NCBI RefSeq assembly: GCF_003236295.1
Contig: NZ_POTW01000070.1
Location: forward strand, 1-36,009
Reading direction: 5' to 3'
Source: Jiangella anatolica
GTDB taxonomy: Bacteria; Actinomycetota; Actinomycetes; Jiangellales; Jiangellaceae
Length of the DNA: 36,009 nt
Within the stretch, counting starts at the first letter, position 1. Every line of letters begins with the position of its first letter. The notes beneath the pieces are model-generated. The model did not search any database. It saw nothing but the letters and a program-made list of their open reading frames with translations, and was not told the DNA's origin. Both the position numbers and the translations under genes were made by a program. This document shows, one piece after another, positions 1 through 2,314 of this stretch.

Positions 1-65
1 GCGGCGGCCTGCCCGGCGGCGGCCAGCGAGGCGCGCAGTGCTTCGACGTACTGGGTGAGCTCCAT
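1..65 (-). CDS. N-terminus of an unrecognised small protein (runs off window edge)
   Basis: Only the first 21 or so codons are present, beginning MELTQYVEALRASLAAAG; the rest lies beyond base 1. The start is ATG at 65-63. A -10-like hexamer CAGGAT (77-72) lies exactly 6 nt upstream and there is no good Shine-Dalgarno sequence, so the mRNA may be leaderless. From memory, this N-terminus resembles small actinobacterial proteins annotated as HicB-like or ribbon-helix-helix DNA-binding proteins, but 21 residues cannot prove it. The gene follows the Fe-S oxidoreductase on the same strand. The intervening 110 bp is filled by a repeated octamer array that probably controls this gene. Start call fairly confident; function open. 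Confidence 0.5.
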   Translation of the reverse strand, partial: MELTQYVEALRASLAAAGQAA

Positions 66-170
66 GACGCCATCCTGGCGTCATGATGGCGTCACGTCAA
101 GCGTCATCGTGACGCCGCCTTGACGGCAGGCAGCGTCACGCGACGCCACGAATGGCGTCACGTGACGTCA
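65..170. promoter_or_regulatory. Helically phased array of ten TGACGCCA/TGGCGTCA-type octamers
   Basis: Ten copies of an octamer or its reverse complement begin at 65, 76, 87, 99, 110, 121, 131, 141, 153 and 163, giving spacings of 10-12 bp, about one helical turn. Copies at 65, 76, 87 and 153 are exact TGACGCCA or TGGCGTCA. That at 163 is the palindrome TGACGTCA. The others match at 6-7 of 8 positions. Orientation is mixed. The array fills the gap between the oxidoreductase stop codon and the start of the partial gene, covering its presumed promoter. Spacing on one DNA face suggests cooperative binding of a multimeric repressor, as with MetJ-type ribbon-helix-helix proteins; the binding protein is unknown. 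Confidence 0.75.
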
Positions 171-175
171 GAAGG

Positions 176-2314
176 TCAGGAACCGCGCTTGACGGCGGCG
201 AGCAGCAGCTGGGCGACGTCGAGGACCTCGACGCCTTCGCCGCGGCCGTCGGCCTGCGCCTCGGTGAGGCCGTCGGAGAGCATGACCCGGCAGAACGGGC
301 AGCCCACCGCGATGGCTTCGGCGCCGGTGTCGAGTGCCTCGGTGGTGCGGGCGGTGTTGATGCGGGTGCCGATGCGTTCTTCCATCCACATGCGGGCGCC
401 GCCGGCGCCGCAGCAGAAGGAGTTCTGCTGGTTGCGTGGCATCTCACGCAGCTCGACCCCCGGCAGCGCACCGACCAGCTCCCGCGGCGGCGTGTAGACC
501 TGGTTGTGCCGGCCGAGGTAGCAGGGGTCGTGGTAGGTGACCGCCCGGCCGGCGATCTGGGCGTCGCCGGCGGGCGCGACGGGGGTCAGCCGGCCCTCCC
601 GCACGAGGCGGTTCAGCAGCTGGGTGTGGTGCACCACCTCCAGCTCCAGCCCGAGCTGGGCGTACTCGTTCTTGATCGTGTTGAAGCAGTGCGCGCAGGT
701 CGACACCACGCGCACGGCTCCGGACTCGCGCAGCACGTCGATGTTCTGCGCCGCCAGCTGCTGATAGAGGAACTCGTTGCCCGAGCGGCGGGCCGGGTCG
801 CCGGTGCAGGTCTCCCCGTCACCCAGGACCGCGAACGACACCCCGGCGGTGTGCAGGAGTTCCGCGACGGCCTGGGTGGTCTTCTTCGCCCGGTCCTCGA
901 ACGCGCCCGCGCAGCCGACCCAGAACAGCCACTCCACCTGATCCAGCGAGTCGACCTCGACACCGACCCGCGGCACCTCGAACGACAGCCCCGCGGCCCA
1001 GTCCATCCGCTTGGAGGCGTTGACGCCCCACGGGTTGCCGGCCTTCTCCAGGTTCTTGAACAACCCGTTCAACTCGCTGGGGAACTCGGACTCGATCAGC
1101 GTCTGGTAGCGGCGCAGGTCCAGGATGTGGTCGACGTGCTCGATGTCGACCGGGCACTGGTCCACGCACGCCCCGCACGTCGTGCACGACCACAACACGT
1201 CCGGGTCGATCACTCCGCCCGCTTCCACGTCGCCCACGAGCGGCCGCTCGGTCTCGGCGTGGGCCGACGCCGGCGCGGTGTCGGGGTCGAGCAGGTACGG
1301 CGCCTTCGCGTACGCGTGGTCGCGCAGCGCGGTCACGAACAGCTTCGGCGACAGCGGCTTCTCGGTGTTCCACGCCGGGCACTGCGACTGACACCGCCCG
1401 CACTCCGTACACGTGGAGAAATCGAGCAGGCCCTTCCAGGAGAAGTCCTCGACCTTCCCCACACCCAGCGACGCGTCGTCGGGCAGGTCGTCCAGCGCCT
1501 CGAAGTCCACCGGCGCGCCGTTCACCATCAGCGGCTTCGCCGCCCCCAGCGCCGGCCCCCCCTCGGGGTCGCGCTTGAACCAGATGTTGAAGAACGCCAG
1601 GCCGCGGTGCCACGCCACGCCCATCGTCAGGTTCCAGGCGATGACGGTGAAGAACAGCCACGACACGGTGATCTTCAGCGCCGCGACCACGTGCACCGTC
1701 AGCTCGGCGTCCGGCGTGGCGACCGAGTCGAACCAGGAGCCGATGAACGCCGTCAACGGGAAGTGCCACACATCCCCGTGCCCGTACAGCCGGTACTCCA
1801 GCCCACGCAGCACCAGGATGCTCACCGCGATCGTCGCGATCGTGAACTCCACGTAGTACGCCTGCCAGAAGTTCGACCCGAAGAACCGCGACCGCCGGCC
1901 CAGCCGCCGTGGATGCGACCGCTGCCGGATCACCGTCAGCACCACGATGCCGATCAACGTCAGCCACGCGATCGCCTCGGTCGCCCACTCGAACGGGATC
2001 CAGTGCCCGATCAGCGGCAACGCGAAGTACGCGTCGAACAACTGCCCATACGCCGTCACCAGCGTGAAGAACAACGCGAAGAACCCGACCATCACGAACC
2101 AGTGCGCCGCGGCCACCACCGGGCGCTTGGCCATCTTCGTGTGCCCGAGGAACTCGCGCACCAGCTGCCGGGTCCGCCCCGACGGGTTCCCCTTCCGGCC
2201 CGGCTCCGGCCCGCCCAGCCGGATCACCCGCACCATCCGGACCACCGCGTCGGTGAACACCACCAACGCCAGCACCGACACGCCCAGCGCGACGACCACG
2301 GCAACGTACTGCAT
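176..2314 (-). CDS. Membrane-bound (Fe-S) oxidoreductase, EtfD-like / heterodisulfide reductase-related
   Basis: This 712-residue protein has about five hydrophobic segments in its first 240 residues, resembling the nitrate reductase gamma-type cytochrome b domain. Two 4Fe-4S motifs follow, CTECGRCQSQCP near residue 305 and CTTCGACVDQCP near residue 382. The C-terminal half carries two cysteine-rich CCG domains (HDPCYLGRH, then CCGAGGARMW, then GCPFC). This is the layout of mycobacterial Rv0338c (EtfD), which passes electrons from EtfBA, reduced by acyl-CoA dehydrogenases, into the quinone pool. That role is inferred from the architecture. A good ribosome site (AAGGAGG) precedes the ATG. A TTACT-N4-AGTAA palindrome upstream suggests control by a fatty-acid or other acyl-responsive repressor. 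An HdrD- or GlpC-like role is the alternative. Confidence 0.85.
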   Translation of the reverse strand: MQYVAVVVALGVSVLALVVFTDAVVRMVRVIRLGGPEPGRKGNPSGRTRQLVREFLGHTKMAKRPVVAAAHWFVMVGFFALFFTLVTAYGQLFDAYFALPLIGHWIPFEWATEAIAWLTLIGIVVLTVIRQRSHPRRLGRRSRFFGSNFWQAYYVEFTIATIAVSILVLRGLEYRLYGHGDVWHFPLTAFIGSWFDSVATPDAELTVHVVAALKITVSWLFFTVIAWNLTMGVAWHRGLAFFNIWFKRDPEGGPALGAAKPLMVNGAPVDFEALDDLPDDASLGVGKVEDFSWKGLLDFSTCTECGRCQSQCPAWNTEKPLSPKLFVTALRDHAYAKAPYLLDPDTAPASAHAETERPLVGDVEAGGVIDPDVLWSCTTCGACVDQCPVDIEHVDHILDLRRYQTLIESEFPSELNGLFKNLEKAGNPWGVNASKRMDWAAGLSFEVPRVGVEVDSLDQVEWLFWVGCAGAFEDRAKKTTQAVAELLHTAGVSFAVLGDGETCTGDPARRSGNEFLYQQLAAQNIDVLRESGAVRVVSTCAHCFNTIKNEYAQLGLELEVVHHTQLLNRLVREGRLTPVAPAGDAQIAGRAVTYHDPCYLGRHNQVYTPPRELVGALPGVELREMPRNQQNSFCCGAGGARMWMEERIGTRINTARTTEALDTGAEAIAVGCPFCRVMLSDGLTEAQADGRGEGVEVLDVAQLLLAAVKRGS

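Follow-up and report, generated by a model that had tools for sequence, protein, structure and literature searches.

Ribbon-helix-helix (RHH) proteins that repress their own genes from tandem sites are already known, and MetJ and Arc are among them. MetJ has the RHH fold and its met boxes are tandem 8-bp palindromes (AGACGTCT) that abut at 8 bp, while in the Arc operator, which consists of two half-sites, the RHH units follow each other at a distance of about one helical turn. According to a review, the RHH protein omega of pSM19035, a regulator of plasmid addiction and partition, sits as dimers on promoter arrays of short repeats, here 7-bp heptads, and has been proposed to polymerise along the array (PMC4803016). 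ParR is described as wrapping arrays of about 10-bp repeats and as repressing its promoter (PMC5016525). In actinobacteria, a survey of phage-shock-protein partners has reported a Toastrack transport operon that includes a transcription factor of the RHH type, and Toastrack has been proposed there to be a sub-membrane signalling scaffold (PMC11237479). This is probably the operon that we have analysed, and since the survey reports it, the pairing of RHH and Toastrack genes is already known. Operators, promoters, a leaderless start and phasing are not described in the parts of that paper that were available. No description of the array presented below, or of an operator for its operon, was found in the literature searched, a search whose scope left out most subscription papers and all supplements. 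What sets the present array apart from the known systems is the lattice of 8-bp sites and 3-bp spacers, its apparent identity with promoter and start codon, its variable phased extension and the breadth of its conservation.

The array lies at one end of a 36,009-nt window, the whole stretch of DNA that was analysed, which is a complete contig of a 7.0-Mb Jiangella genome and ends inside the RHH gene. Ten octamers begin at 65, 76, 87, 99, 110, 121, 131, 141, 153 and 163, with a mean step of (163-65)/9 = 10.9 bp. Counted from site 65 to site 163 they differ from TGRCGYCA at 0, 0, 0, 2, 1, 1, 2, 1, 0 and 0 positions, so that five are exact, three have one mismatch and two, those at 99 and 131, are weak. 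All are read here on the minus strand, the strand of the RHH gene (1-65, the first 21 codons, cut at the contig end). Because this partial gene starts with the ATG at 65-63, the first octamer, which we call the core site at -7 (65-72, TGGCGTCA), contains the A of the start codon as its final base. The core sites at -18 (76-83) and at -29 (87-94) both read TGACGCCA. Further upstream follow a weak site with two mismatches that overlaps the inferred -35 element (99-106), two sites with one mismatch each (110-117 and 121-128), one with two mismatches (131-138), one with a single mismatch (141-148) and two exact sites (153-160 and 163-170), the last of which is the full palindrome TGACGTCA. The array thus ends shortly before the stop codon (176-178, minus strand) of the upstream neighbour, a gene in the same direction (176-2314, minus strand) which, from its sequence features, is probably (Fe-S) heterodisulfide-reductase-like and which lies outside the system. 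An earlier note on this DNA had stated that the array fills the gap between two genes. It does lie between them, but its first site reaches into the start codon.

The ten phased octamers proposed in that note were borne out at their positions. If sites with up to two mismatches are chained at steps of 10-12 bp, none of 2000 dinucleotide shuffles of the array region and none of 1231 tiles from the rest of the window reach ten sites, the longest chains being three and four, respectively. When sites must be exact, or may have a single mismatch, the observed chain shrinks to three, a length that is still absent from all 2000 shuffles and all 1231 tiles. Single octamers show no excess across the whole window. 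The signal of the array is clustering and spacing, not octamer abundance. Steps outside the 10-12 class give shorter chains, and in the class of 7-9 bp no chain exceeds two sites.

This spacing sets the array apart from the operators with which it had been compared. The earlier note had named MetJ and omega as models, and in this respect the likeness did not hold, since the sites here repeat at 11 bp and those of MetJ and omega abut at 8 and 7 bp. The met box AGACGTCT and the array octamer TGACGTCA do have a common GACGTC core; however, the neighbours here are a reductase-like gene and a DUF4097 gene, not known methionine genes, and the lack of chains longer than two sites at 7-9 bp rules out abutting boxes of the MetJ type. 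An omega-type operator is ruled out by the 8-bp sites at an 11-bp step, in contrast to contiguous heptads; the array is moreover apparently chromosomal, has 3-bp spacers and contains a start codon. Arc shares the RHH spacing of about one turn with the array, but has two half-sites only.

The RHH gene was detected in 21 of the 22 genomes that made up a family-level sample, in 101 of 296 genomes of a class sample, from which two weak or partial matches (G205 and G291) were not taken into the locus set, and in 61 of 396 genomes of a phylum sample, several of these only marginal. At least 508 loci were confirmed, of which 80 were kept as named loci; L133 was excluded throughout as its start is misplaced. 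An information profile over 115 non-redundant loci (2 of 181 loci had under 110 bp of upstream sequence and were left out) has peaks at -29 to -22, -18 to -11 and -7 to +1, together with a TTG near -35. The octamer shared by the three peaks is TGRYRYCA, which is identical to its own reverse complement. Core sites were counted with at most one mismatch to this octamer and one base of register slack for the two upstream sites. By this count the core is complete in 79 of 111 non-redundant loci, two sites are present in 31 and none in one (L139), whereas among 1717 control positions at least 100 bp upstream three sites never occur and two sites occur twice. Without slack the numbers for 115 loci are lower (three sites in 64, two in 34, one in 4, none in 13), because a minority of loci have their lattice one base out of register; both upstream core sites are displaced in this way in 14 of 176. 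In this redundant set of 176 loci, in which some species occur twice and from which five loci with the strand motif RINFRPP (L070, L122, L124, L140 and L146) are omitted, three sites are present in 139, two in 36 and none in one, and the steps are exactly 11 bp in 143. The phylum sample contributed 22 loci (L263-L284); 17 were examined, L272, L281 and L283 being interrupted or partial and L280 and L282 being repeats, and 6 of the 17 are without a visible core at the starts chosen. Absence of phased octamers upstream of orthologues had been named as the finding that would speak against the array, and the proposal came through this comparison because most of the orthologous upstream regions examined carry them. 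The ten-site array was generalised only in part: phased octamers recur, but conservation covers a unit of three sites, and the count of ten reflects an extension particular to the lineage. Judged from sequence, the same arrangement recurs in many distantly related actinobacteria. In 53 loci with the strand motif RVNLR the letters of the core differ by position, being mostly TGGCGCCA at -29, TGGTGCCA at -18 and TGGCGTCA at -7, which suggests graded affinities.

Outside this core the number of sites varies, while their phase is kept. In the 12 Jiangella genomes the chain that starts at the ATG comprises 6 to 10 sites with at most two mismatches, a length that none of 200 shuffles reaches in any of them. 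Nine family loci outside Jiangella have chains of 3 to 15 sites, four of them the core only, and one chain of four is equalled by 67 of 200 shuffles. The longest chain, 15 phased sites of up to two mismatches at L056 (G020), exceeds the ten of the window. Outside Jiangellaceae, perfect sites upstream of the core are found in 69 of 104 non-redundant loci within 170 bp. Those within 90 bp lie 42-46, 53-56, 63-67, 74-77 and 85-87 bp from the site at -7, and none falls between these distance classes. The best period of the upstream sites is 10.55 bp (vector length 0.83, n = 80 sites in the 104 loci). This period is the DNA helical repeat and gives the strongest support for phasing, so that the proposal of helically phased sites holds across genera.

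The core sites appear to coincide with the -35 and -10 elements of a leaderless promoter. In the window the putative -35 element is TTGACG (95-100, minus strand), and 17 bp from it lies the putative -10 element CAGGAT (72-77, minus strand), which runs from the end of the site at -18 across the 3-bp spacer to the first base of the site at -7. The transcription start would be the ATG at 65-63. Leaderless bacterial genes, common in actinobacteria, are reported to carry a TANNNT signal that precedes the start by about 12 bp (PMC3160421). In the family, 107 of 115 loci have a TTG at -36 or -35, compared with 67 of 2280 control positions. xAxxxT is found at -12 to -7 in 99 of the 115 (35 of 2280 control positions) and a Shine-Dalgarno-like motif in one (47 of 456 control 12-mers), two figures that are not independent of the octamers, because the octamers occupy those positions. 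The -35 and -10 elements occur together in the right geometry in 93 loci and in 3 of 2280 control positions. At the level of the family both features of leaderless genes, the -10 signal and the lack of a Shine-Dalgarno motif, are thus present. The family hexamer is CANNNT, built like that of the window across the spacer between two octamers, from the end of one to the first base of the other, and its own first base is usually C, not T. The window, which is not among the 115 loci, shows the -10 geometry, but also has AGGA, a Shine-Dalgarno-like string, at -11 to -8; this could be a weak Shine-Dalgarno sequence in this genome only. A generic sigma-70 promoter scan found no promoter at this array.

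The product of the partial gene is, on the evidence of profiles and of a structure model, an RHH protein of the MetJ/Arc superfamily. That the gene downstream of the array encodes such a protein had been guessed from its first residues; Pfam profiles of its relatives uphold this, and structure comparison does so weakly. Completion of the gene succeeded in part. The C-terminal RHH part of the split gene was located at another contig end (G000:C110:86589-86816), whereas residues of about 22-87, which end in a proline-rich linker, have no match in the assembly of this genome. Full-length homologues in the congeners examined have 163-167 residues; a proline-rich linker joins their N-terminal helical part to the C-terminal RHH domain, after which comes a tail with GWVR as its last residues. 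Pfam HicB (PF05534) matches 18 of 19 diverse members and RHH_1 matches 9 of 19 at E <= 0.01; the RHH domain of a congener tested on its own falls just below the gathering cut-offs. In a model of the J. muralis protein the RHH domain has helices at 114-126 and 131-143, and the DNA-binding strand is not among the assigned elements. Residues 104-150 of this model align with AtaR, CopG, Arc, PutA and AmrZ at Z 5.0-5.4, values that are modest on their own, and an unrelated chain scores Z 5.0 on the N-terminal part, which is modelled as helices 4-19 and 23-58 and strands 62-69 and 72-79. Foldseek against solved structures gave no hit at E <= 0.001 (best E 0.57), phmmer against PDB sequences gave no significant match (best 0.38), and a search of NCBIfam gave none above cut-off. 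Many members of the family end in GWVR or a similar GW tail after a variable stretch, in a region of low model confidence; the tail is possibly a partner-binding peptide.

The gene that follows the RHH gene is a DUF4097 (Toastrack) gene in all eight loci tested by Pfam. In addition, twelve loci were inspected by eye and two crude motif scans were run, which detected a Jiangella-like motif in 23 of 181 loci and another motif in 78 of 182. In the genome of the window, the open reading frame after the RHH gene on C110 resembles, by eye, the DUF4097 proteins of congeners. An ABC ATPase-like reading frame comes next in four of six loci inspected by eye (L158, L161, L176 and L180) and was not seen in L148 and L221. 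On the upstream side, the array and the RHH gene follow the same reductase-like gene in 10 of 11 other congeners; in the eleventh, G005, the RHH gene is near a contig end and no intact copy of the reductase-like neighbour turned up. The array remains beside the RHH gene even at loci where the reductase-like gene is more distant. A scan of the 12 Jiangella genomes with a sequence model of the core, in which 150 first-look candidates per genome were scored and E-values are rough, placed all matches with E < 0.04 at the RHH locus itself or close by, at a distance of up to about 550 bp. In one genome only was such a match off the locus, at a distance of about 520 bp, and the weaker matches look like chance. 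Since only the RHH locus is significant in each Jiangella genome, the array looks dedicated to its own operon in these 12 genomes.

Two known gene systems could be set aside on the basis of these neighbours. ParR works with the ParM motor, and none was seen beside the RHH gene; ParMRC partition does not fit the DUF4097 partner in the eight loci tested, nor the ABC ATPase-like frame that comes next in four of six loci inspected. HicB-family antitoxins (PF05534) have the same C-terminal RHH domain and are the best Pfam family for the protein described here, but the loci examined do not form a HicAB toxin-antitoxin pair: the next gene is DUF4097 in all eight tested, the upstream neighbour in Jiangella is reductase-like and no HicA was seen beside the gene.

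Taken together, we consider it quite probable that the array is the operator of an autorepressing actinobacterial RHH-Toastrack operon. RHH dimers would bind each 8-bp pseudo-palindrome through their beta-ribbon, and the spacing of 11 bp would align adjacent dimers along a single helix face, which would let occupancy spread from the three core sites to the weaker upstream sites, which would add cooperativity. Since both promoter elements (-35 and -10) and the start of a leaderless transcript would lie under the core sites, the bound array would exclude RNA polymerase and limit the level of the RHH protein itself. Repression is probably relieved by the co-encoded Toastrack protein or the N-terminal domain of the RHH protein acting as sensor, which is a guess. 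Binding, repression, cooperativity, the transcription start and the signal are all steps that we infer.

The RHH protein could also bind the array and activate, or switch between activation and repression depending on its concentration, as reported for omega. The review cited above describes omega as able either to activate or to repress the promoter of its own gene (PMC4803016), and the upstream sites of the array differ in number between loci and occupy positions where activators are often found. However, these upstream sites are optional, and the conserved ones cover -35 to +1, where a bound protein would block the polymerase; we therefore regard activation as unlikely.

Autorepression by the RHH protein finds further support in a covariation between protein and sites. 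In the strand motif R-x-[N/S/T]-x-R the middle residue tracks the third base of the half-site. Among 126 non-redundant loci, a set whose search pattern admits RINFRPP and from which L275-L279 and L284 were dropped (uncertain start or no core seen), N is paired with a majority of TGG half-sites in 47, and in 59 S or T is paired with a majority of TGA, with 6 loci discordant and 14 tied. There is no consistent difference between S and T. A Pagel-type comparison on the tree prefers dependent over independent change (LR 40.3, p about 4e-8), although likelihood tests of this type are prone to over-call when there are few origins. Parsimony counts 7 changes of the strand residue, and an independent-pairs test on supported branches had one usable pair only, because of which the covariation rests on these approximately seven changes and on the likelihood test. 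We therefore read the link between strand residue and half-site as a strong association with limited independent replication.

It is this associative character of the link between RHH protein and sites that leaves some room for a different regulator as the owner of the sites, with the RHH protein acting elsewhere. The sites accompany the RHH gene across families, though, and do so also where the reductase-like neighbour is further off; the strand residue covaries with the half-site letters, and the 12 Jiangella genomes hold no second significant array. Ownership by another regulator thus seems to us slightly less plausible still than activation. Very improbable is a function of the repeats as RNA hairpins, for instance at the 3' end of the transcript of the upstream gene. 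The folding of the strand does beat shuffled sequences (z -5.9), but palindromic octamers fold by construction, a terminator scan of the array found no terminator-like site, the array stays with the RHH gene when the upstream gene is further off, and the spacing of loose sites tracks the 10.5-bp DNA helix, which RNA pairing does not need. A centromere like that of ParR and parC, brought to mind by an RHH protein and about ten repeats near 11 bp (parC of plasmid R1 has ten 11-bp repeats), is the least credible reading, as each Jiangella genome has a single significant locus at an ordinary promoter, the partner was DUF4097 wherever tested and no ParM-like neighbour was noticed by eye at six loci.

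If the array is indeed the operator of an autorepressing operon, a widespread Toastrack operon gains a regulator and an operator. The loci would then offer a natural series of 3 to about 15 phased sites in which array length can be related to RHH cooperativity, and a natural protein-DNA code, with one strand residue per base pair, for the study of recognition. A more far-reaching version, which we put forward tentatively and regard as rather doubtful, holds that in a conserved actinobacterial circuit operator, -35, -10, transcription start and ATG form one lattice of 8+3 bp, that the RHH protein makes a filament whose length depends on how many upstream sites there are and tunes the promoter, that the Toastrack protein strips the filament on envelope stress and that N for TGG and S or T for TGA constitute a code.

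Some single loci deserve mention. Two copies of the RHH gene occur in G252 (L090/L092), G268 (L079/L100), G282 (L104/L114) and G249 (L111/L121). At two loci, L036 and L037, an octamer begins with the TGA stop codon of the reductase-like gene. L036 (G009) also has a second trio of octamers at about 171-200, at the stop codon of the reductase-like gene and about 520 bp before the array of the RHH gene, which looks like the outcome of an insertion into a single long array.
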